Source: Candidatus Pacearchaeota archaeon
GTDB lineage: Archaea > Nanobdellota > Nanobdellia > Pacearchaeales > GW2011-AR1
Assembly (NCBI GenBank): GCA_017609885.1
Contig: JAFCDB010000003.1
Location: forward strand, 1-36,551
Reading direction: 5' to 3'
Length of the DNA: 36,551 nucleotides
The notes below the pieces were generated by a model. It saw only the letters and a program-made list of their open reading frames with translations, ran no database searches and was not told the origin of the DNA. Position numbers and translations under genes: made by a program. Below are positions 4,917-27,450 of the stretch, piece by piece (positions within the stretch are counted from its first letter, which is position 1; each line of letters starts with the position of its first letter).

Positions 4917-5453
4917 ATGGCGAAGACACAAAAAGTGAAAGATAAAGGATATAAAACTCCTGAGAAAAAGGCTGTTGAAGAAAAAAAACGGCCGGTTGAG
5001 AGAGTTGAGAATCTTATTAGAATTATGTCGACAGATATTCCTGCGAGTAGGAATATTTATGCAGGACTGACAAAAATTAAAGGAGTAAGTTTTGCAATGT
5101 CGAATGCAGTTTGCCATATTTTGAAGTTGAATAAAAATAGGAAAATTGAATCGTTGAGTGAAGAAGAAATTGATAAAATTACAGAGGCAATTCAAAATCC
5201 AAAGATTGCGGATTTTATGAAAAATAGGAGATTTGATTTTGATAGTGGAGAGACAAAGCATTTGTCGCTGACTGATTTAGATTTGAGAAAGGAGTTTGAT
5301 ATTAAGAGGTTGAAAAAAATTAAGAGTTATCGAGGGATTCGGCATTCTCGTGGGCTTCCGACGCGAGGACAAAGGACAAAGAGCAATTTTAGGAAGAAAG
5401 GAAAGAACAAGGCAATTGGAGTTAAAACTAAAAAGACAGGTAAGAAAGGATGA
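4917..5453 (+). CDS. rps13: 30S ribosomal protein S13 (uS13)
   Basis: 'RNIYAGLTKIKGVSFAMSNAVC...SYRGIRHSRGLPTRGQRTKSNFRKKG'. Confidence 0.95.
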   Translation: MAKTQKVKDKGYKTPEKKAVEEKKRPVERVENLIRIMSTDIPASRNIYAGLTKIKGVSFAMSNAVCHILKLNKNRKIESLSEEEIDKITEAIQNPKIADFMKNRRFDFDSGETKHLSLTDLDLRKEFDIKRLKKIKSYRGIRHSRGLPTRGQRTKSNFRKKGKNKAIGVKTKKTGKKG

Positions 5454-6130
5454 TAAAAAAACATAAAAAATTCAGGAAACCAAAGAAAGCATTTGATACT
5501 GAGAGGATTAAAGATGAGAATGTTGTTGTTGGAAAGTATGGTTTGAAAAATAAAAAGGAACTTTGGAAGGCGAAGGCGAAGCTTGATAATTTTAGAAGGC
5601 AGGCGAAAAAACTTATTGATGCTGATTTAGAAATGCAGGAAGTTTTTTTAATAAAATTACGAGGGCTTGGATTTAAAGTTGATACAACTGCAGAGGTTTT
5701 GGCTCTGACTGAAGAGGATATTTTGAAAAGGAGATTGCAAACAATGGTTTTAAAAAAAGGTATTGCAACAACAGTAAAAGGTGCGCGGCAGATGATTACT
5801 CATAAAAAGATTTTAGTTAATGGAGGAGTTGTGAATATTCCTTCGTATATGGTTAGTGTTGAAGATGAGGGAAAGATTGCGATAAGGAAGAGTGTAAAGG
5901 CAAAGCCAGTTGTGGAGAAAAAGGGAGAGGAGAAAGAAGAAGAGAAAGTTGAGGAAGTGAAAGAAGAAAAGAAGGAAGAGATAAAAGAAGGAGAGAAGAT
6001 TGGAGAGAAGATTGGAGAGAAGATTGGAGAGAAGATTGGAGAAATGAAAGAAGTTGAAAATGTTGAAGAGAAAATAGAAAAACCTGTTGAGGAAAATGTT
6101 GAACTTAAAGTTGAGGGAGGGCGAAAATAA
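5450..6130 (+). CDS. rps4: 30S ribosomal protein S4 (uS4) with Lys/Glu-rich C-terminal extension
   Basis: S4 core 'RRLQTMVLKKGIATTVKGARQMITHKKILVNGGVVNIPSYMV' followed by KE-rich tail with EKIG repeats. Confidence 0.93.
   Translation: MIKKHKKFRKPKKAFDTERIKDENVVVGKYGLKNKKELWKAKAKLDNFRRQAKKLIDADLEMQEVFLIKLRGLGFKVDTTAEVLALTEEDILKRRLQTMVLKKGIATTVKGARQMITHKKILVNGGVVNIPSYMVSVEDEGKIAIRKSVKAKPVVEKKGEEKEEEKVEEVKEEKKEEIKEGEKIGEKIGEKIGEKIGEMKEVENVEEKIEKPVEENVELKVEGGRK
5990..6037 (+). repeat. 4 x 12-bp tandem repeat GGAGAGAAGATT inside rps4 tail
   Basis: Identical units at 5990, 6002, 6014, 6026 encoding EKIG x4. Confidence 0.95.
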
Positions 6131-11636: not shown

Positions 11637-12470
11637 TTAACTCATCAAATCATCAATTGGAGATTTAATTTTTTTAATTTCTTCTTGAGAAACGTGTGCA
11701 TATAATTCTGTAGTAGAGATTGAACTGTGACCTAACAATACCTGAATGTATCTTAAATCAACACCATTTTCCAAAAGGTGAGTTGCGAAACTATGACGCA
11801 AAGTATGTGGATGGATTGATTTTTGTATTCCTGATTTTCCTGCGATTTTTTGGACGATTTTTTGAATGTTTCTTGTTGACAAATTTCCATTTGGACCTGA
11901 AAAAAGATATTCTTGGTTTAGCTCATTTTGTTTTTTTACTTGTTTTTCAAGGGATTTGTTTAGGAATTCTGGGATATTGAAGATTCTGTCTTTGCGTCCT
12001 TTTGCCTGTCTGACAAATCCGATTTTTTCGTTGAATTTTAGGTCGTTTGTTTTAAGGTTTGTGAGTTCTGAGACTCGCAAGCCACAAGAGTAAAGTAGGG
12101 AAATCATAAGTTTGCTTTTTTTTGTTTGACAATTTTTTAATAAAATCTTTATTTCGTCTTTTGTTAAAACTGTTGGAATTCTTTTTTCTCTTTTTGGGCG
12201 TTTTATTGTTATTGTTAGATCTTTTTTTAGGATGTTTGTGAAGGAATATTTTATTGAGGCGAGGAAGAGGATTACTGATATTGCTGCGCTGTCTGTGAGT
12301 TTTTCTGACATGTAATATTTTATGTCGTCTTCTGAAATTTTTTCTGGAGATTTTTTTGTGAAGTTTAGGAGATTTTGATTGCATCGAATGTAATTTTTTA
12401 TTGTGTATGGGGAAGATTTTGAGATTTTTAATTCTATTTCAAGTTTTTTTAGGAATTCTTGGTTGTTCAT
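11637..12470 (-). CDS. xerA: Tyrosine recombinase, XerA-like
   Basis: 'SLLYSCGLRVSELTNL', 'HPHTLRHSFATHLLENGVDLRYIQVLLGHSSISTTELYAHVS' (R...HxxR...Y). Confidence 0.9.
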   Translation of the reverse strand: MNNQEFLKKLEIELKISKSSPYTIKNYIRCNQNLLNFTKKSPEKISEDDIKYYMSEKLTDSAAISVILFLASIKYSFTNILKKDLTITIKRPKREKRIPTVLTKDEIKILLKNCQTKKSKLMISLLYSCGLRVSELTNLKTNDLKFNEKIGFVRQAKGRKDRIFNIPEFLNKSLEKQVKKQNELNQEYLFSGPNGNLSTRNIQKIVQKIAGKSGIQKSIHPHTLRHSFATHLLENGVDLRYIQVLLGHSSISTTELYAHVSQEEIKKIKSPIDDLMS

Positions 12471-13132
12471 TTTAGTTTTTTAGATAGTTGTTTAAACAGC
12501 TGTTTGTTTTCTTTATATAGAATGGTTTGCATTCCTAATTTTTTTGCAGGGAGGATGTTCCATTTTTGGTTGTCGATAAACAAGCAGTTTTTCGCAGGGA
12601 CGTTAAGCTTTTTTAAGCAAAGTTTGTAGATTTTTGGATTTGGTTTGCGCATTCCGACGTCGCAGGAGACGACAACAGCGTCGAATTTTTTTGTGAGTTT
12701 TGGTTTTATTAATGCTTTTTTTGAAAGATGCCATTGGTCTGAGAGAATTGCTATTTTGTAACCTTGTTTTTTTAATTTTAGGGCTAACTTGAATAAGGGC
12801 TTATTTTCTTTGAATTGTTTTTTGTAAAGTTTGATTGCAAGTCTTTCGAATTTTTTTTCTGAGATATTAACATTTTTTGAGATTGTTTTTATGACTTTTT
12901 TTTCTGTTAATTCTCCTGTTATGGATTTTGCGTATGTTGTGTCGATTGCGTCGAACCATTGGTCTAGTGAAATTCCTAATTTTTTTGAGATTGAGTTGTG
13001 GAATCCTAAAAGTTTGTGAAGATGTTTTGGGTGGGAGGAATATTTTCCTAGTTCAAGGACTCCGCCAATGTCAAAGATTATTGCTTTGATTTTTCTTTCC
13101 TCTTTTTTCACTTTCTTTTCCCCTTTTTTCAT
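12467..13132 (-). CDS. HAD-family hydrolase
   Basis: 'IIFDIGGVLELG', 'KIAILSDQW', 'MRKPNPKIYKLCLKKLNVPAKNCLFIDNQKWNILPAKKLGM' (catalytic motif I second Asp replaced). Confidence 0.85.
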   Translation of the reverse strand: MKKGEKKVKKEERKIKAIIFDIGGVLELGKYSSHPKHLHKLLGFHNSISKKLGISLDQWFDAIDTTYAKSITGELTEKKVIKTISKNVNISEKKFERLAIKLYKKQFKENKPLFKLALKLKKQGYKIAILSDQWHLSKKALIKPKLTKKFDAVVVSCDVGMRKPNPKIYKLCLKKLNVPAKNCLFIDNQKWNILPAKKLGMQTILYKENKQLFKQLSKKLK

Positions 13133-14588: not shown

Positions 14589-14796
14589 TTTATCAACGGT
14601 AAACAAAAAACAAACAACAGCAAACAGCTGTTTATAGATGTTGTTTGCTGTTTAAACAGCTGTTTATTTCAAACAACAGGGTGTTTATAGGTTTTTTTTT
14701 GAGTGTTTTGACACATTCTTAGACACATTCTTAGACAGATAATTTAAGGATTTTAAGAATTTCTTGTTAAAAAATTAGTGATTTGTCGACGGCAAA
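14589..14796. promoter_or_regulatory. Multi-repeat control region upstream of the 14845 wHTH gene
   Basis: AAACAGCTGTTT at 14622 and 14654 with GCTGTTTAAACAGC at 14647; GACACATTCTTA at 14710 and 14722; TTTATCAACGGTAAA at 14589 and TTTGTCGACGGCAAA at 14782. Confidence 0.7.
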
Positions 14797-14844
14797 TGAA
14801 GGTTGGAGCAAAAGATTTATAAAGAAAGGGGAATAATTTAGAGT

Positions 14845-15459
14845 ATGTTTGGTTGGTTTGGAAGAAAAAAAGAGATAGAATTGATAAAAGAAGAGGTTCA
14901 TGATTCTTTTGGAAAAGTTAAAGAAGATATAGACAAGCTTGGACAATGGGTTGGACATTTCAATAATAAACATGATTCACATGAAAACGAGTTTTTAGGG
15001 ATTAAAAAGGATTTGTCGTTGGTAAAAAAAGAGATTGAAGAATTAAAAGATATGATTTCTATATTTGGAAATGACATGAGTAAACAGATGTTCAAAACAA
15101 ACAAACAGCTGTTTAAGAAACAAACAGCTGTTGATGCTGTTCAAACAGGTGTGCAAACAGCTGTTCAAACAGTGAATTTTGGTGGTTTTTCGAATTTGAG
15201 TGTAACTGAGCGTGCAATTGTTTGGGTGTTAGCAAATAGTGAATTGAAATTAAGTTATGAAGATCTAGCATCTATGTTAGGAAAAACAACTTCAACTATT
15301 CGTGGGCAAATAAATAGGATACAACATAAAAGTGAAGGGTTAGTAGAAATGTATGTTGAAAAAAATGGAAAGAAAAGGATTTATATGTCTGAAGAAATAA
15401 AAGAAAAAATACTAAAAAATGTGAAAGTGAAAGTCAGAGAAAAAAGAGAGGAAGATTAA
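14845..15459 (+). CDS. Coiled-coil + repeat linker + C-terminal winged-helix protein
   Basis: N-term heptad-like region, linker KQLFKKQTAVDAVQTGVQTAVQTV, C-term 'LSVTERAIVWVLANSELKLSYEDLASMLGKTTSTIRGQINRI' HTH. Confidence 0.7.
   Translation: MFGWFGRKKEIELIKEEVHDSFGKVKEDIDKLGQWVGHFNNKHDSHENEFLGIKKDLSLVKKEIEELKDMISIFGNDMSKQMFKTNKQLFKKQTAVDAVQTGVQTAVQTVNFGGFSNLSVTERAIVWVLANSELKLSYEDLASMLGKTTSTIRGQINRIQHKSEGLVEMYVEKNGKKRIYMSEEIKEKILKNVKVKVREKREED
15103..15173 (+). repeat. AAACAGCTGTT-type repeats within wHTH gene
   Basis: Copies at 15103 (AAACAGCTGTTT), 15122, 15143 (AAACAGGTGT), 15155, partial 15168. Confidence 0.85.
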
Positions 15460-15718
15460 GTAAAAATCATTTGAAAAAGGAAGGAAAGTGAGAGTTAAAT
15501 TAATAAAAATTTAGTGGAAAAGTGATAAAAGAGATGTTGTGAAAAGGTAAAAGAGAGAGTTAAAGTAAAAAGGAGAATTAAATTGTAGTTTGTAAAAAAT
15601 AAAAAAGAAAGTAAAAAATAAAATTTTGTAAAGGAAGTAGTTAGTAATATCTAAGAAAAAATAAAGAAAAATAAGAGTTTTCTATAGTTGTAAAAGTTAT
15701 TCTGTTAACCGAAAATAA

Positions 15719-16519
15719 TTATAGTTCCCGAAGAGATAATAAAGTGTTTAAGGTTGCTAATCTCTTTAAACTATCTGAAATTCTAAGGAGAATGCGTTTA
15801 TTATTGATTTTTTCTTTTATTAATGGAAAACCTTTGTTAATAATTCTTTTAATGTAATCTCTAATTGAACTTTCCGAAAGATTTAATTGTTGGGATAAAA
15901 GAGAATAATCAACGAGAGTTCCTTGTTCTTCAAATTGATATATTGATGATAAAACCAACATTTCTTGATTAGTTAAACGTTTGATTTTTAATCTAAGATC
16001 TTTTTTTATATTATCTAATTGGTTTAATATAATTGAAGGATTTGGCTGTTGATTTTGAAGTTGTTGATTTTGAGGCGAATTTTGACTAATTTGAGGTGTT
16101 TTTGGTGTTTTGACCCCATAATTTCCTGTCGAAGTGTCTGTCGAAGTGTCTGTCTGTCTGTCTGTCGAAGAATGTGTCGAAGCCCCATGGTTTCCAGTGG
16201 AAAGGGGTATATTTGAAGGTTTAAGACTTTCTAAAGGAACATTATGTGTCGAAGAATGTGTCGAATTTTTGAGATGTGTCGAATTTATGTGTCGAAGTGT
16301 CGAAGTTTCAGGATTATGTGTCGAAGAATGTGTCGAATTTTGAATTTCGGGGATTTTTTGAGACTTAGAGAGGTTTTTTGTTAAAAGATCATTTACTTTT
16401 ACTAATTCGTAGAGAGAATTTTGTATTTCGTGAAGTTCTTTTTTTATAATTTCAAATTCTAAATTTAACTGATTAATATCTGATTTAACTTTTTGAAATG
16501 CCTCTTTTATTTGATCCAT
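15719..16519 (-). CDS. Coiled-coil + Ser/Thr/His repeat linker + C-terminal winged-helix protein
   Basis: Linker STHSSTHNPETSTLRHINSTHLKNSTHSSTHN...; C-term 'LTNQEMLVLSSIYQFEEQGTLVDYSLLSQQLNLSESSIRDYIKRI' HTH. Confidence 0.7.
   Translation of the reverse strand: MDQIKEAFQKVKSDINQLNLEFEIIKKELHEIQNSLYELVKVNDLLTKNLSKSQKIPEIQNSTHSSTHNPETSTLRHINSTHLKNSTHSSTHNVPLESLKPSNIPLSTGNHGASTHSSTDRQTDTSTDTSTGNYGVKTPKTPQISQNSPQNQQLQNQQPNPSIILNQLDNIKKDLRLKIKRLTNQEMLVLSSIYQFEEQGTLVDYSLLSQQLNLSESSIRDYIKRIINKGFPLIKEKINNKRILLRISDSLKRLATLNTLLSLREL
16127..16337 (-). repeat. About 11 copies of TTCGACA(CAT) word, with a GACA tetranucleotide run
   Basis: TGTCGAA (+ strand) repeated across the linker-coding region; 5 x TGTC at 16147-16166. 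Confidence 0.85.
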
Positions 16520-17639: not shown

Positions 17640-18395
17640 CTTTTCTGTGATTTTGTCTATATATAAGTTATTAAATTAAAGATATTTTGGAAATTTAGTT
17701 GTTAATTTTATTTTAGAGTTTAATTATATTTATTTAAGAATTTAATTATTTGTTTGAGAGTGTAGGAATTTAAATTGATTTATTTTTAAGTGATTATGCG
17801 AACTTTATTTTGTAATTTTATTAATTTTCATGTTTTCTTGATTATATGAACTTCTATTTATGAAATCTTTTGTTTTGAGTGACCCTATGATTTCGTTTGG
17901 AAAAGTTTATAAAAGAAGTAAGAATTTAATTTTTTATTTTTATTTATAAATATTTATATTATATATAATATATATTATAAAATATATATTATATTATATT
18001 ATATTAATGTGTTTTATTTTAATTATTTGAAAATAATTAAAATTTTTATAATTTATTATATTTAATTGTGTTAAATTAATCCTTAATTGTATTAAATTGA
18101 TTTTTAGCCATGTTTTTACAAATTTAAATTGATTTTTAGTTATTCTTTGGAAATTATATTTTTATATTCTCAAAAGTAGAGAGAATTTTTGAATTTATGA
18201 ATTTCCAAACGAAATCAAGGTGTAGGGTTTTTTAAATTTTTAAAATGAATTTTTTTTGATTTGAGGAATTTCCTAATAAAATTTTTTTGAGATTTATTTT
18301 TTCCAAATGAAATTAAGGTGTAGTTAAATACTATGCAAAAGGTTATACAAAAGTTTATAAAAAATGTTTTTTATTTTTTTATATTGAATTGAGAG
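17640..18395. other. Predicted chromosomal replication origin (oriC) region
   Basis: ~750 bp AT-rich non-coding DNA next to orc1/cdc6, with ORB-like repeats at 17882-17904 (inverted), 18202-18228 and 18299-18323. Confidence 0.75.
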
Positions 18396-19616
18396 GTGAA
18401 AATGGAAGAAGTTGGAAAAAAGATTGATAAGATTTTTGATTCGTTTATGGAGAATAATTTGTTTAAGGATAAGTTTGTTTTGCAGGCGAGTTACACTCCT
18501 GAGACAATCCCTCATCGTGATGAGCAGATTGAGCAGATAGCTTTGATACTTGCTCCTGTTCTTCGAGGAGAGAGGACGAGCAATTTATTTGTTTATGGGA
18601 AGACAGGGAGTGGAAAAACACTTTCAGTGCAGTGTGTTAGAAATGAACTTTTGAAAAGAAATAATTTGGAAAAGAATAATTTAGTTATTGAGTATATTAA
18701 TTGCAAACTGAAGAAAGTTAGTGATACAGAATATCGGATTTTGGCAGAACTGATAAAAAAACTTGGAGGTAGCGTCCCTGCGACTGGACTTCCAACAGAT
18801 CAGGTTTATAATAAATTTATAGAACTTATTGATAATGAGAAGAAATTGATTGTTATAATTTTTGATGAGATTGACCATGCTGTTAATAAAATTTCTGATA
18901 ATTTTTTGTATAATCTGACGAGGTTGAATTCTGAACTTTCAAAAAGCCAGATTTGTATTGTGGGAATTTCAAATAATCTGACTTTTTTAGATGATTTAGA
19001 TCCGAGGGTAAAGAGTTCTTTAAGTGAAGAAGAGTTGGTTTTTCCGCCGTATGGTGCTTTGCAGTTGCGAGATATTTTAAAGGAGAGAGCTGATAAAGCA
19101 TTTAATGAAGGGGTTTTGGATGAAGGTGTTATTTCAAAATGCGCTGCTTTTGCAGCTCGAGAACATGGAGATGCACGCAGAGCATTGGATTTGTTGAGGA
19201 TTGCAGGGGAAATTGCAGAAAGAGATAATATGAAAAAAGTTTCAGAGGCAAATATTGATTTGGCAAATGAGAAAATTGAAAAAGATAAGATTTTAGATAT
19301 TGTAAAAACAGAGCCGAAGCAATTTCAGCTTGTTCTTCTTTCGATAATTGATCTTGTTCAGAAAAATAAATTAGAGGAGATTTTTACTGGAGATGTTTAT
19401 AATACCTATCAGATTTTATGCGAGAAGACAAGAACTGATATTTTGACGCAGAGAAGGGTTTCAGATATTTTGTCAGAGTTTGATATGATGGGGCTGATAA
19501 ATTCGAGTGTTATTTCAAAAGGGCGCCAAGGCAGAACAAGGAGAATTCGACTTTCAGTTCCTAAACAACTTTTTGGAAAAGTCAGGGATATTTTGAACGA
19601 CTCACTTAATATTTAA
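18396..19616 (+). CDS. cdc6: Orc1/Cdc6 replication initiator
   Basis: 'YTPETIPHRDEQIEQIALIL...LFVYGKTGSGKT', 'VIIFDEIDHA', C-term WH; likely start ATG 18402. Confidence 0.93.
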   Translation: MKMEEVGKKIDKIFDSFMENNLFKDKFVLQASYTPETIPHRDEQIEQIALILAPVLRGERTSNLFVYGKTGSGKTLSVQCVRNELLKRNNLEKNNLVIEYINCKLKKVSDTEYRILAELIKKLGGSVPATGLPTDQVYNKFIELIDNEKKLIVIIFDEIDHAVNKISDNFLYNLTRLNSELSKSQICIVGISNNLTFLDDLDPRVKSSLSEEELVFPPYGALQLRDILKERADKAFNEGVLDEGVISKCAAFAAREHGDARRALDLLRIAGEIAERDNMKKVSEANIDLANEKIEKDKILDIVKTEPKQFQLVLLSIIDLVQKNKLEEIFTGDVYNTYQILCEKTRTDILTQRRVSDILSEFDMMGLINSSVISKGRQGRTRRIRLSVPKQLFGKVRDILNDSLNI

Positions 19617-19617
19617 A

Positions 19618-21177
19618 ATGAGGAATGAGCTATTGAGTTTTTGTATGGAGAAGGGTATCTTATTGGATAAAGAGGTTTTGAATGTTTTTAGTGAATTAAA
19701 TAATTTTGAGCTTGCGAAGAATTTGATTGAGAGGATAAATTATAGATATAAACAGAAAATTATTGATAGGAATTTTTTTGTTGACAAGGAAAAATCTCAT
19801 GATTTGCTTTCAAATTATAAGAATGTTGAGCATAAGATTGTGGAGGAATTTTTTTTAAAGCTTGGAATTGAGGTTAAAGAAAATGATTTTGAGATTTCAA
19901 ATAAATTTGTCGAGCCTTTGAAAGGAGATTTGAATTTTAAAGTTTTTCAAAATGAGCCGAAGAAAATTGAGGTTAAGGATTTTGTTAGGAATTTTAAAAA
20001 TAGGTTTAGGGTTTTGCAGGGAATTTTGCAGGAGAGGGCTGAACTTGAGAATTTGGTTTCGATAAACCGGCTTGAGCAGGGAAGACAGGCTTCGATTATT
20101 GCACTGGTTTATGATAAGAGAATTACAAAAAATGGGAATGTTTTTCTTGAAGTTGAAGATTTAACTGGCAGGGTAACTGCAATTGTGAATAAAGATAAGG
20201 AGGAGCTTTTTAAAAAGTGCGGCGAGATTTTGTTAGATGAAGTTATTGCGCTGAAATGTTCGTCAGGGGGAGAGTTAGTTTTTGTTAATGATATTATTTT
20301 TCCAGATATTCAGATTTTTGAAAAAAAGAAATCAAAAGTTGAGGAGATAGCTGCTTTTATTTCTGATATTCATGTTGGAAGCAATAAGTTTTTGGAGAAA
20401 AATTTTTTGAAATTTATTTCTTGGTTAAATGGGGATTTTGGCGGGGATGAGCAAAAGAAGCAGGCATTGAAAATAAAATATCTTTTTATTACTGGGGATA
20501 ATGTTGATGGGGTGGGAGTTTTTCCTGGGCAGGAAAGTGAGCTGGCGATTAAGGATATTCGAGAGCAATATAAAAAATTAGCGGAATTGCTTTCGAAGAT
20601 TAGGGAAGATGTTAAAATTATAATTTGCCCTGGGCAGCACGACGCTGTTCGGCTTGCTGAACCACAACCTGTGATTGGAGAGTATTATGCAGAACCGCTT
20701 TATTATTTGAAAAATATTTTGTTTGTTACAAATCCTTCGATTGTTGAAATTGGTTCGCAGGTAAGATTTAAAGTTTTGATGTATCATGGGGCAAGTATGC
20801 ATGGAATAATAAATAATATTGAGGAGCTGAGATTAGGTAAGGGGCATGATTCTCCGACAGATGTTGTTAAGTATATGTTGAAGAAACGACATTTGGCGCC
20901 GACACATTCGCTTGTTACTTATACGCCTTTGGAAGAAGAAGATCCTTTATTGATTAAAGATATTCCGGATATTGTTGCAACTGGGGATTTGCATAGGCCA
21001 GAAGTTGCAGATTATAATGGGGTTTTAGCAATTGCATCGAGTTGCTGGCAAAGCAGGACTCCGTTTGAGGAAAAGGTTGGAAATAATCCTGACCCTTGTA
21101 AGGTGCCAATTTTTAATTTGAAGACGAGGGAAGTTAAGATTTTGGATTTTTCAGGAGGGGAAGATGATAGTGATTGA
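19618..21177 (+). CDS. polB (DP1): DNA polymerase D small subunit (DP1)
   Basis: OB region plus phosphoesterase motifs 'AAFISDIHVGSN', 'LFITGDNVDG', 'IICPGQHDAVR', 'MYHGASMHG', 'VATGDLHRPEV'. Confidence 0.92.
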   Translation: MRNELLSFCMEKGILLDKEVLNVFSELNNFELAKNLIERINYRYKQKIIDRNFFVDKEKSHDLLSNYKNVEHKIVEEFFLKLGIEVKENDFEISNKFVEPLKGDLNFKVFQNEPKKIEVKDFVRNFKNRFRVLQGILQERAELENLVSINRLEQGRQASIIALVYDKRITKNGNVFLEVEDLTGRVTAIVNKDKEELFKKCGEILLDEVIALKCSSGGELVFVNDIIFPDIQIFEKKKSKVEEIAAFISDIHVGSNKFLEKNFLKFISWLNGDFGGDEQKKQALKIKYLFITGDNVDGVGVFPGQESELAIKDIREQYKKLAELLSKIREDVKIIICPGQHDAVRLAEPQPVIGEYYAEPLYYLKNILFVTNPSIVEIGSQVRFKVLMYHGASMHGIINNIEELRLGKGHDSPTDVVKYMLKKRHLAPTHSLVTYTPLEEEDPLLIKDIPDIVATGDLHRPEVADYNGVLAIASSCWQSRTPFEEKVGNNPDPCKVPIFNLKTREVKILDFSGGEDDSD

Positions 21178-22156
21178 TAAGGTTTATGGGGAAGAAGAAA
21201 TAAAAGAGAATGTTTTGATTGAGTTGATTAATTCCAGACCTATTCAGAGATTGAAAGGAATTGCGCAGTTGGGTATGCCTGAAAAATATTATCATTTGAA
21301 AAATGGTTTTAGTCGATATGAACATTCTGTTGGAGTTTTGATTTTGTTGCGACGACTTGGTACTGATTTAAAGGAACAAGTTGCTGGATTGTTGCATGAT
21401 GTGTCACATACTGCTTTTTCGCATGTTATGGATTGGATTGTTGGAGATCCGACAAAAGAAGATTACCAAGATAAGAAACTTTTAGAGATTATGGGGAATT
21501 CTGAACTTTCGGAAATTTTGGAAAGGCATGGATATGATTATATTGAAATTGCGAGTCATGAAAATTTTAGTTTGCTTGAGCAGGATGCTCCTAGGATTTG
21601 TGCAGATAGGATTGATTATTTGTTAAGGGAGTTAGCGATGGATGGGAATAGTGATGAGATTGAAATTATTGTTGATGGTCTTTGCAATATTGGTGGGAGA
21701 ATTGTTTTTAATTCTGTAGAAAGTGGAAGGGTTTTTTCTCAAAATTATGTGAAGTGTCAGAGAGAGAATTGGGGCGGAATTCAGGCAAGGAGTCGTTATT
21801 ATTTTTTGTCTTTAATTTTGAGAAAGGCACTTGATTTGGGAATTGTGACGATAGATGATTTTCATGATAAGGGAGATATAGAGATAATTAATATGGTTAT
21901 TGGAAGTGGGAATGGTGAATTAATTTCTCGATTGGAATTGTTGGAAAATAATTTTAGGGTTTGGGAGAGTGATAAAGAGGGGATTGAAATTAAAAAGAAA
22001 TTTAGGTGGGTGGATCCAGAGATTTTTTTTGAAGAAAATGTAAAAAAACTTTCTGAAATTGATTTTGAATATAGAAAGATATTGGAAGAGGAGAAAATAA
22101 ATTCAAGTAGATTAGTTAGAGTTAAAATTGAGGAATTTGAAAATGAACACAACTGA
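21164..22156 (+). CDS. HD-domain phosphohydrolase (SAMHD1/dGTPase-like)
   Basis: 'RLKGIAQLGMPEKYYHLKNGFSRYEHSVGVLILLRRLG...VAGLLHDVSHTAFSHVMD'; overlaps both neighbours. Confidence 0.85.
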   Translation: MIVIDKVYGEEEIKENVLIELINSRPIQRLKGIAQLGMPEKYYHLKNGFSRYEHSVGVLILLRRLGTDLKEQVAGLLHDVSHTAFSHVMDWIVGDPTKEDYQDKKLLEIMGNSELSEILERHGYDYIEIASHENFSLLEQDAPRICADRIDYLLRELAMDGNSDEIEIIVDGLCNIGGRIVFNSVESGRVFSQNYVKCQRENWGGIQARSRYYFLSLILRKALDLGIVTIDDFHDKGDIEIINMVIGSGNGELISRLELLENNFRVWESDKEGIEIKKKFRWVDPEIFFEENVKKLSEIDFEYRKILEEEKINSSRLVRVKIEEFENEHN

Positions 22157-25100
22157 ATATTTTGAAGAGATTGAAAAACAAATAAAGGAGAATTATAAAG
22201 TTGCTGAATTGGCAAGAGAAAAAGGTATGGATCCTGTTGGGAAAGTTGAGGTTCCTTTGGCGCATAATTTAGCTGAGAAAGTTGTTGGACTTGTATCTAC
22301 GATTTATCCTCAGGTTTTGAATTGCGGGATTAGTGAGAGGATTGGGGAGTTGGAGAGGGAGTATGGGTTGTTAGATGTTGCTGTGTGTTTGAAAATTGCT
22401 GAGGAAGTTTCGCAGGAACGATTTTGCAAGTTTGAGAATAAGTTGCAGGCAATTGAAGCAGGGATAAGGGTTGGTTTTGCATATACAACTTTGGGAGTTG
22501 TTTCAAGTCCAATTGAGGGATTTACTTTTTTAAAATTGGGAAAGACTGCAAAAGGAGAGGATTATTTTATGCCGTATTTTTCAGGACCGATTCGAAGTGC
22601 AGGAACTACTGCAAGTTGTGTTGGGTTGTTTATTATTGATTATCTTAGGGAAAAATTTGGATATGCAAAGTATGATGCAACTGAAAATGAAATTAAAAGA
22701 ACTAGGACAGAGTTGTTTGATTTTCACGAGAGGATTACAAATTTGCAGTACTGCCCTACAGAAGAAGAGATAGAGTTTATTGCGAGTAATTTGCCTGTGC
22801 AGGTTGCTGGGGAGGCAAGTGAGAAATTAGAAGTTTCAAATTATAAAGATTTGCCGAGGGTGGATACAAATTTTTTGAGAAGCGGGTTTTGTTTGATTTT
22901 AGGAGAAGGGGTTGCGCAAAAAGCTCCGAAGGCATTGCGAATTTTGAAGGGGTTGCGGGAAAAAGGATTTAAACTTAGTGATTGGGATTGGCTGGAAAAA
23001 TATTGTGAACTTCATGAAAAACAGACATTAGGTAAAAGTAAAGAGGCTGTTGCAACTTATATGAAGGATTTGGTTGCAGGAAGGCCGATTTTTGGGCATC
23101 CGTCGAGGAGCGGGGGATTTAGATTTAGATATGGAAGGTCGCGAGTGGCGGGTTTTTCAGCTGTTAGTATTCATCCTGCGACAATGGCTATTTCTGATAG
23201 TTTTATTGCAACAGGAACACAATTGAAAATTGAAAAGCCAACAAAGGGTTGTGTTACAACTGTGTGTGATAGTGTTGACGGGCCGATTGTTAAATTAAGA
23301 AATGGGGGTGTTAAGAAACTGCAGGATTTTGAGGAAGCAAAGACTTTGTATAAAGAAGTAGAAGAGATAATTTATTTTGGAGATGTTTTATTTCCTTTTG
23401 GGGATTTAGCAAATAGAAATGCTGATTTAATTAAACCAGGTTATGTTGAGGAGTGGTGGAATCTTGAATTGGAAAAACTTGGCGGAAAAGTAGAAGATTG
23501 TTTTAATGTTGATTTTGAAAAAGCTGTTGAAATATCTGAAAAATATAAAGTTTCCTTGCATCCAAAATATATTTATTTTTGGAATCAAATTGGACGGGAG
23601 GAATTTTTAGAATTATTGAGATGGACTTCTTATGGGCGGATAAATAAAAAATTGATTTTGCCATATAGCCCTCGGGAAAAGGAGAAATTTGCAAAAGGCA
23701 AGAGGGCTTTGGAGTTGCTTGGAGTGGAGCATGAAATTGGAGTAGAGAATGTTATTTTTTCTGAAGTTGATTCTAAATCTTTGTTTGTTAATTTGGGATT
23801 GGATGAAAATTTGATTGAAAGAGATGATTATTTTATTGAAAAGGAGTTGAATGAAATTGCAGAAAGAGTTATTGAGAAGAAGCAGGATGTTTTGGAAATT
23901 GTGGATGGGCTTTCGAGATTTGTTATTAGAAATAAGGCAGGAGAGTTTATTGGGACGAGAATGGGGCGGCCTGAAAAAGCAAAGCTTCGGAAGTTGACTG
24001 GGAGTCCGCATGTTTTGTTTCCAATTGGTGAAGAGGGAGGGAGATTCAGGAGTGTGCAGGAGGCAGTGGAAAGAGGATTCGTTAATGCAGAGTTTCCAAT
24101 TTATTTTTGCGAAGATTGCAAGAATGAAACAATTTATAGAATTTGCGAGAAATGCGGAAAAAAAACGAAAAAACAATTTTATTCTTTTAGCAAACAGGAA
24201 ATTGTTAATGAGGAAAAATCTGGTGAAAGCATTAATCGGGGATTTTCAAGACGTAAAATTTTAATTAAAGATTATTTTGAAAATGCGCGTAAGATTTTGA
24301 AAATGACAAATGGGGAGATGCCTGAAATGGTTAAAGGGGTGAGGGGGACAAGTTCGAAAGAGCATGATTTTGAGCATTTGTCAAAAGGGATTTTGAGAGC
24401 TAAGTTTAATTTAAATGTAAATAAAGACGGGACTGTTCGGTATGATATGACTGAACTTCCTATTACACATTTTAAACCTTTTGAAATAGGGATTTCTGTT
24501 GAGAAACTTTTGGAATTAGGATATGTGGAAGACATTCATGGAAAGGAGTTGAAAAGTGAGGGGCAGATTTTGGAACTGAAGCCGCATGATATTATCCTTC
24601 CTTCAAATAATGAAGCAGGAGATGAAAAAGCAGATGATGTTTTTTTTAATTTAGCGAATTTTATTGACGAGTTGTTAGATAAGTTTTATGGTTTGCCAAG
24701 ATTTTATAATTTGGAGAAAAAAGAGGATTTGATTGGGCATTTGGCTGTTTGCATGGCGCCGCACAATTGTGCTGGAGTTATTTCTAGGATTATTGGTTTT
24801 TCGAAGACGCAAGGGATTTTTGCAAGTCCGTTTTTGCATGCTGCTGTCCGTAGGGATTGTGACGGCGATGAATTAGCTTCTATGCTTTTGTTAGATGTTT
24901 TGATAAATTTTTCAAGAAAATATCTTCCTTCGCATCGTGGAGGAACGCAGGATGCGCCGTTGGTTTTAAATGGAAGAATTGTTGCTGGGGAGGTGGATGA
25001 TCAGATTTTAGATTTTGAACTTGTTGATAAATATCCTTTGGAGTTGTACGAGAAGGCAGAGAAAATGATGCATAGTTCTGAGGTTGAAATTGAAATGGTG

Positions 25101-25607
25101 AAACAGAGGGTGAATAATAATTTGGACCCTTTTGTTAATATTGGTTTTACACATGACACTGAGGATTTTAATTCAGGTGTGCTTTGCAGTTCTTACAAAA
25201 TGCTGCCGACAATGCAGGAGAAAGTTGCGAGTGAGATGGAGTTTGTTAAGAAAATGAGGTGTGTTGATGCTTCTGATGTTGCGCGGTTGATTATTGAGAG
25301 GCATTTTATTCGGGATATTCGAGGGAATTTGAGGAAGTTTTCAATGCAGGGTTTTAGGTGTGTTAAGTGCAATGCAAAATATCGCAGGCCGCCTCTTGTA
25401 GGCAAGTGTTTAAAATGTAATGGAAAAATAATTTTTACAATTAGCGAGGGAGGGATTGTGAAGTATTTAGAACCTGCACTGGATTTGGCAAATAATTATG
25501 ATGTTCCTGTTTATGTTAAACAGAATTTGGAGTTGACAAAGAAATATATTGAGTCGATATTTGGAAGAGAGGAGACACGGCAGAGTGATTTGCGGGAGTG
25601 GTTTTAG
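22143..25607 (+). CDS. polC (DP2): DNA polymerase D large subunit (DP2)
   Basis: 'MNTTEYFEEIEKQIKENYKVAELAREKGMDP', 'LHAAVRRDCDGDELASMLLLD', zinc-ribbon C-terminus; start trimmed from 22128; no intein apparent. Confidence 0.95.
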   Translation: MNTTEYFEEIEKQIKENYKVAELAREKGMDPVGKVEVPLAHNLAEKVVGLVSTIYPQVLNCGISERIGELEREYGLLDVAVCLKIAEEVSQERFCKFENKLQAIEAGIRVGFAYTTLGVVSSPIEGFTFLKLGKTAKGEDYFMPYFSGPIRSAGTTASCVGLFIIDYLREKFGYAKYDATENEIKRTRTELFDFHERITNLQYCPTEEEIEFIASNLPVQVAGEASEKLEVSNYKDLPRVDTNFLRSGFCLILGEGVAQKAPKALRILKGLREKGFKLSDWDWLEKYCELHEKQTLGKSKEAVATYMKDLVAGRPIFGHPSRSGGFRFRYGRSRVAGFSAVSIHPATMAISDSFIATGTQLKIEKPTKGCVTTVCDSVDGPIVKLRNGGVKKLQDFEEAKTLYKEVEEIIYFGDVLFPFGDLANRNADLIKPGYVEEWWNLELEKLGGKVEDCFNVDFEKAVEISEKYKVSLHPKYIYFWNQIGREEFLELLRWTSYGRINKKLILPYSPREKEKFAKGKRALELLGVEHEIGVENVIFSEVDSKSLFVNLGLDENLIERDDYFIEKELNEIAERVIEKKQDVLEIVDGLSRFVIRNKAGEFIGTRMGRPEKAKLRKLTGSPHVLFPIGEEGGRFRSVQEAVERGFVNAEFPIYFCEDCKNETIYRICEKCGKKTKKQFYSFSKQEIVNEEKSGESINRGFSRRKILIKDYFENARKILKMTNGEMPEMVKGVRGTSSKEHDFEHLSKGILRAKFNLNVNKDGTVRYDMTELPITHFKPFEIGISVEKLLELGYVEDIHGKELKSEGQILELKPHDIILPSNNEAGDEKADDVFFNLANFIDELLDKFYGLPRFYNLEKKEDLIGHLAVCMAPHNCAGVISRIIGFSKTQGIFASPFLHAAVRRDCDGDELASMLLLDVLINFSRKYLPSHRGGTQDAPLVLNGRIVAGEVDDQILDFELVDKYPLELYEKAEKMMHSSEVEIEMVKQRVNNNLDPFVNIGFTHDTEDFNSGVLCSSYKMLPTMQEKVASEMEFVKKMRCVDASDVARLIIERHFIRDIRGNLRKFSMQGFRCVKCNAKYRRPPLVGKCLKCNGKIIFTISEGGIVKYLEPALDLANNYDVPVYVKQNLELTKKYIESIFGREETRQSDLREWF

Positions 25608-27307: not shown

Positions 27308-27450
27308 TTGCAGGAAATTGCAGGAAAGGGAATTTCGTTTTCTGCGGGGAAGGAGATTGTAGGGAATGGGATTGTGAAGGAAGGGAATTGCGAGGGCAGG
27401 GAATTGTGGAGAAGGGGATTGCGTTTTCTGTAGGGAAGGGGGATTGCGGT
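27308..27450 (+). repeat. G/A-rich degenerate tandem repeat, ~16-bp unit RGGRAGGGRATTGYRG
   Basis: About 8 imperfect units; GTTTTCTG insertion recurs in two units. Confidence 0.75.

Follow-up and report, generated by a model that had tools for sequence, protein, structure and literature searches.

A probable replication-origin region of Pacearchaeales with putative binding words embedded in the coding linkers of two winged-helix genes

A palindromic DNA word is repeated in the disordered linker of P0001, a winged-helix gene of Pacearchaeales, and selection on the DNA of this linker is well supported. The best explanation, to which we assign a probability of roughly 60%, is that the P0001 palindromes are selected protein-binding sites of a replication-origin region, together with an origin recognition box (ORB) and GACA repeats in the convergent gene P0002, the initiator gene cdc6, an AT-rich segment and PolD. 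The locus combines constraint at the DNA level, sites embedded in coding sequence, conserved synteny, a match to the archaeal ORB and rarity of the sites genome-wide. Coordinates refer to the window, the whole 36,551-nucleotide stretch analysed from a Candidatus Pacearchaeota archaeon (GCA_017609885.1, contig JAFCDB010000003.1; Table 1).

P0001 belongs to the single-copy core genes of Pacearchaeales. The source genome has one copy, and orthologs occur in 93 of the 139 related genomes, almost all of these within the order, across which protein identity is 40–60%. A contig profile search with the P0001 sequence alone gave no matches, and one with the alignment gave 133 relatives, those with names being mostly ‘Candidatus Pacearchaeota’ and ‘Nanoarchaeota’. 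The gene was also found on contigs labelled Patescibacteria (L228, JAHJUH010000079.1) and Methanothrix (L246, JAQTYS010000291.1), both of which are probably mis-binned. An AlphaFold2 model built from the alignment has a long helix (residues 4–78) and a winged helix (residues 114–182), and the linker words sit in the disordered residues 80–111 (pLDDT <50). Structure searches returned only generic MarR/ArsR-like winged helices (Z 10–11.5 over 85–94 residues, rmsd about 3 Å for most matches), a likeness of fold alone in which no match passed the family cut-off, and profile searches of solved structures gave coiled-coil matches only.

The sequence-only reading held that one DNA word is read in two frames of P0001, as KQLF (aaa cag ctg ttt, 15103) and as QTAV (caa aca gct gtt, 15121 and 15154), and this is correct; the 11-mer AAACAGCTGTT itself starts at 15103, 15122 and 15155, and a further copy with one mismatch lies at 15082. 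The core CAGCTG, which that reading called palindromic, belongs to exact palindromes AAACAGCTGTTT at 15103, 14622 and 14654. Non-coding copies of the word extend to TAAACASSTGTTTA, and the centre is GC, GG or CC in most copies. With up to one mismatch, the word has 17 strand-matches in the window compared with 1.0 in dinucleotide shuffles (largest 6), and 10 of the 13 exact strand-matches in the whole 750-kb genome fall inside the window. Linkers of 68 of 88 P0001 genes carry 3–5 word sites, with cores spaced mostly 21, 12 or 19 bp apart. Elements of the CCGACGA/TCGTCGG/TCGACG type are enriched around P0001 as well (212 of 400 matches lie between −500 and +1500 in 80 loci of up to 20 kb; in the window, 14780–14800), which suggests a further word near the gene. 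Elsewhere in the window are a perfect 12-bp repeat in 4.4 copies (GGAGAGAAGATT; 5990–6042, within ORF 5450–6130) and a 16-bp repeat in 4.8 copies (27348–27421).

Table 1 Features of the P0001–cdc6 locus in the window
Feature	Position	Strand	Description
xerA (archaeal)	11637–12470	−	
Satellite AAACAGCTGTTT	12494–12505	.	Just upstream of xerA
Palindrome AAACAGCTGTTT	14622–14633	.	Non-coding, upstream of P0001
Palindrome AAACAGCTGTTT	14654–14665	.	Non-coding, upstream of P0001
GACACATTCTTA x2.3	14710–14737	+	Upstream of P0001; resembles ACACATTCTTCGACACA words of P0002 linker
P0001	14845–15459	+	Coiled coil (residues 4–78), disordered linker (80–111), winged HTH (114–182)
Palindromic word AAACAGCTGTTT	15103–15114	+	P0001 frame 0, read KQLF
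Word AAACAGCTGTT	15122–15132	+	P0001 frame 1, read QTAV
Related word CAAACAGGTGTG	15142–15153	+	Read QTGV; 12 bp before next copy
Word AAACAGCTGTT	15155–15165	+	P0001 frame 1, read QTAV
AAAGTGAGAG word	15485–15494	+	Purine-rich convergent intergenic region
P0002	15719–16519	−	Coiled coil (residues 2–53), low-confidence linker (54–160), winged HTH (161–265)
GACA/TCGACA repeats	16126–16182	−	P0002 linker, read STDRQTDTSTDTST
ORB-like box TTTCCACTGGAAACCATGGGG	16183–16203	−	In P0002 coding linker, read STGNHGA
Very AT-rich intergenic segment	17701–18395	.	Upstream of cdc6; 4–9% GC at 17901–18100
orc1/cdc6 replication initiator	18396–19616	+	PolD subunits follow
PolD small subunit	19618–21177		Downstream of orc1/cdc6
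PolD large subunit	22128–25607		Downstream of orc1/cdc6

Codon choice in the P0001 linker is held far more tightly than the peptide demands. When synonymous codons were redrawn from each gene's own usage with peptides fixed, 13.3 ± 3.7 copies of AAACASSTGTT(T) were expected in 88 linkers and 196 were observed, the words and regular expressions having been defined after inspection of the data and the orthologs, through shared ancestry, not being phylogenetically independent. The aligned orthologs thus bear out conservation at the nucleic-acid level, as had been proposed. Codon constraint (G/df) is 39.8 in linker columns versus 9.1 in equally conserved columns elsewhere in P0001, and at conserved columns beyond the linker codons vary in the ordinary way. 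Counted by reading frame, 53 words are read in frame 0 as K[QH][LV]F, 153 in frame 1 as QT[AGPR]V and 2 in the third frame. Glutamine is encoded by CAG at residues 81 and 88 (frame 0) and by CAA at residues 93, 100, 104 and 108 (frame 1); Ala95 is GCT in 53/53 and Thr109 is ACA in 83/83. The variable residue of QT[AGPR]V is A, G, P or R, exactly what the codons SST encode. Synonymous changes that destroy the word, the case that would have counted against selection on the DNA, are absent from the orthologs in most genomes, and in some (for example, families f4 and f7) the exact word is absent or only AAACASSTGTC is kept. The linker amino acids are conserved among the orthologs, but synonymous positions are conserved as well, far beyond codon usage.

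That peptide conservation, with Q, T and V positions nearly invariant, is what would be expected if QT[AGPR]V and STGNEGV were short linear motifs of the protein, with the repeated DNA as a by-product, but codons are fixed far beyond usage and differ by frame for the same residue, and identical words occur in non-coding DNA. Neutral spread, with slippage or gene conversion copying a simple repeat within the linker, would produce the 12-bp tandem periodicity, and some local copying also seems to happen, because the promoter and linker of locus L025 share a stretch of about 39 bp (GGCTGTCCAAACAGCTGTCCAAACAACTTCAACAGCTGT). However, position-specific codons are held across the order despite the divergence of the protein to 40–60% identity, and the ORB described below is single, non-tandem and equally frozen; we consider neutral spread very improbable. 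The sequence-only reading had left selection and spread side by side; selection is preferred because each position has a fixed codon choice throughout an order, and spread survives as local copying in one genome. A PvuII-type restriction site (CAGCTG) was also rejected, as the AAA and TTT flanks are conserved, the centre varies (GC, GG, CC) and the sites occupy a single locus.

P0002 has the same architecture as P0001, with a domain layout taken from AlphaFold2, and is convergent with it in 80/80 loci. Its linker peptide S[TI]GN.GV[PS]TDRQTDRQ is encoded by TCCA..GGAAA....GGGGT followed by GACA repeats, and, judged by sequence, the box agrees with the published common archaeal ORB, TCCA[CG]T[TG]GAAA[TC][GA]AAGGGGT, G-string included (PMC4164010). 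The archaeal ORB (TCCASTGGAAATGAAGGGGT) is present in 81 of 85 P0002 genes; the copy in the window (CCATGGGG) lacks the final GGGGT and matches less well than the majority. Resampling synonymous codons under unchanged peptides predicts 0.64 ± 0.81 ORBs in P0002 genes compared with 83 observed, and 2.5 ± 1.8 GACA3 words compared with 161. Single codons are correspondingly rigid: Ser107 is TCC in 84/84 (background 12%), Gly112 is GGG in 82/84 (background 14%) and Asp116 is GAC in 67/68 (background 28%). A scan of 1.28 Mb of loci gave 82 ORB matches, of which 79 are at P0002 on the minus strand; neither of two control patterns had a match. The P0002 ORB is usually the sole ORB of the region; genomes G087 and G096 have one further ORB each, immediately upstream of cdc6, and rare extra ORBs outside the coding linker occur in L336, 123 bp ahead of the P0002 homolog, and in L214 (−129). 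P0002 homologs from other orders of the class were found by profile and their DNA was then read, and 26 of 41 carry the ORB within the coding linker. The encoded peptide is S[TIS]GN.G in 23 of these and VPQE..GS in three (L335, L336 and L098), which have the same ORB DNA in another reading frame. Of all the arguments for selection on DNA, this frame switch within one gene family is the strongest. It also tells against selection on the peptide, a reading already contradicted by the observations above and to which we attach hardly any credence.

Replication genes lie near P0001 and P0002. A widespread gene order is xerA – P0001> – <P0002 – <winged helix – <... – cdc6> – DP1> – DP2> (arrowheads give direction), with P0001 and cdc6 about 3–17 kb apart wherever one contig holds both. 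A third small winged-helix gene beside P0002 (16570–16842, minus strand) is present in 69/80 loci. The lowest 100-bp GC content upstream of cdc6 has a median of 5.5% (44 loci) versus 22% elsewhere, and the AT-rich segment is a candidate unwinding element. The convergent intergenic region was rejected for that role since its minimum 100-bp GC content (21% versus 22% elsewhere) is unlike that upstream of cdc6. This region (15460–15718; L189–L202) is strongly A/G-rich on the P0001 strand. The AAAGTGAGAG word recurs in 68/80 loci, between +400 and +1100, and AAAGTGAGAGTTAA words are repeated in the convergent intergenic region in 68/80 loci; the latter word also codes KVRV at the P0001 C-terminus, where the codons AAA GTG are frozen. 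An inverted ORB pair flanking the AT-rich segment is lacking in most genomes, one ORB being typical; a loose ORB upstream of cdc6 was detected in just 4/44 loci, with pairs in G087 and G096, and in most genomes the ORB is about 2 kb or more from the AT-rich segment. Cumulative GC skew has its minimum 13 kb from the locus in G087 and a maximum, not a minimum, 30 kb from it in G226, and is broad in G096.

Word sites are rare outside this locus. In 80 loci taken from named genomes, 234 of 268 sites lie ≤500 bp from the P0001 start, compared with 3 for the reversed control, and 130 of 168 palindromes found genome-wide in 69 genomes are inside the 3.6–6.7-kb P0001 loci. Order members with a P0001 match average 2.4 palindromes per genome, versus 0.4 in those without. 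In G087, a single contig of 575 kb, every word site falls within 380 bp, in P0001 or just upstream. Few sites occur elsewhere in the genomes, and a regulon of a third-party protein was rejected.

This near confinement, the palindromes both upstream of and within P0001 and the resemblance of its product to MarR/ArsR regulators would suit autoregulation, in which P0001 binds operators at its own gene, the ORB serves regulation by Orc1 and replication starts elsewhere; sites almost confined to one locus also mean that there is no regulon. Upstream sites, however, peak 100–250 bp ahead of the ATG and not at the ATG itself, and a core site is missing from the 400 bp upstream in 27 of 87 genomes, most of which keep intragenic sites. 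The three copies of the variant AAACASSTGTC in G096 are confined to the P0001 linker, with none upstream; an intragenic array can therefore persist without promoter copies. The 3–5 intragenic sites of most linkers exceed what simple repression needs, and the ORB and cdc6 linkage are left unexplained. We regard autoregulation as unlikely.

A centromere (partition) site, at which a ParB/AspA/SegB-like P0001 would nucleate on clustered palindromes and segregate chromosomes, is in our judgement quite unlikely. It would fit the clustering of palindromes near the origin, the satellites reaching up to 9 kb upstream (31 versus 3 downstream in the 80 loci; these have no constant relation to xerA), the proximity of xerA in 43/80 loci and the coiled coil plus winged helix of P0001. 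SegB sites of Sulfolobales are likewise palindromic, with a central S, and mostly intragenic (PMC12284271), but SegB is a ribbon-helix-helix protein with a ParA partner and 40–50 sites around the chromosome. P0001 has no ParB or ribbon-helix-helix domain, being a winged helix on a coiled coil, and no ParA-type ATPase is encoded beside it; the sole AAA_31 match in its own genome is on contig 6 and the locus is on contig 11. Nor does a partition site account for the ORB.

If the locus is instead a replication-origin region, as we favour, Orc1/Cdc6 would bind the ORB embedded in P0002, P0001 would bind its own palindromes as a dimer through its winged helix on a coiled coil (proposed target word, AAACASSTGTTT), and the GACA words would be for P0002 itself or another partner. 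The resulting nucleoprotein array would start or regulate replication at the AT-rich segment before cdc6, which would serve unwinding, with origin recognition elements spread over about 4 kb. Co-occurrence of word and gene, together with the fold of P0001, suggests that P0001 probably binds its own palindromes. Linkers can hold such sites because their only task is to connect two folded domains, for which nearly any peptide will serve; with the protein letters dictated by DNA signals, part of the probable origin thus seems to be written inside genes.

One of the closest parallels is the phage lambda origin, which consists of iterons within the O gene (PMC5043065). As there, a putative DNA-binding protein has an array of initiator-type binding words within its own gene, here in the disordered linker between folded domains of P0001, and one or both of P0001 and P0002 probably bind their own words, as lambda O does. 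The present case differs in being chromosomal and archaeal, in involving two genes rather than one, in embedding the box of a third protein (Orc1) and in its proteins, which are winged-helix proteins with coiled coils, the binding of P0001 being putative. No Pfam or NCBIfam match to phage replication protein O was detected; by analogy, the P0001 locus appears to work like lambda ori and is not a member of the lambda O family. Archaeal Orc1/Cdc6 origins (Sulfolobus oriC1, haloarchaeal oriC; PMC12141716, PMC3528665, PMC4164010) share the ORB core with its G-string, the orc1/cdc6 linkage and an AT-rich segment, but here the ORB lies within coding sequence and usually occurs as one copy. An approach like that of Ori-Finder 2, which scans intergenic sequences (PMC4164010), would therefore pass over this ORB. 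The UBP/ucm motif of Sulfolobus (PMC12141716) is similar in that a second, non-Orc1 DNA-binding protein has its own origin motif, but UBP binds hundreds of chromosomal sites, whereas the word of P0001 hardly occurs outside its own locus and lies within its own gene.

We put it at about even odds that, in much of the archaeal class to which Pacearchaeales belongs, the chromosomal origin is partly protein-coding, with a single ORB and the words of two origin proteins placed in the disordered linkers of their own genes and the linker peptides as by-products. These tiny archaea form a large group, very abundant and mostly uncultured, and no description of an origin for them was found in the literature searched. 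The analysis pinpoints candidate elements of the origin, together with two uncharacterised proteins that are candidates for a role there, and these are testable in vitro. It explains why an intergenic-only search would miss such origin elements, and it offers a clear example of DNA signals carried in disordered linkers, in which frame switches separate selection on DNA from selection on protein.
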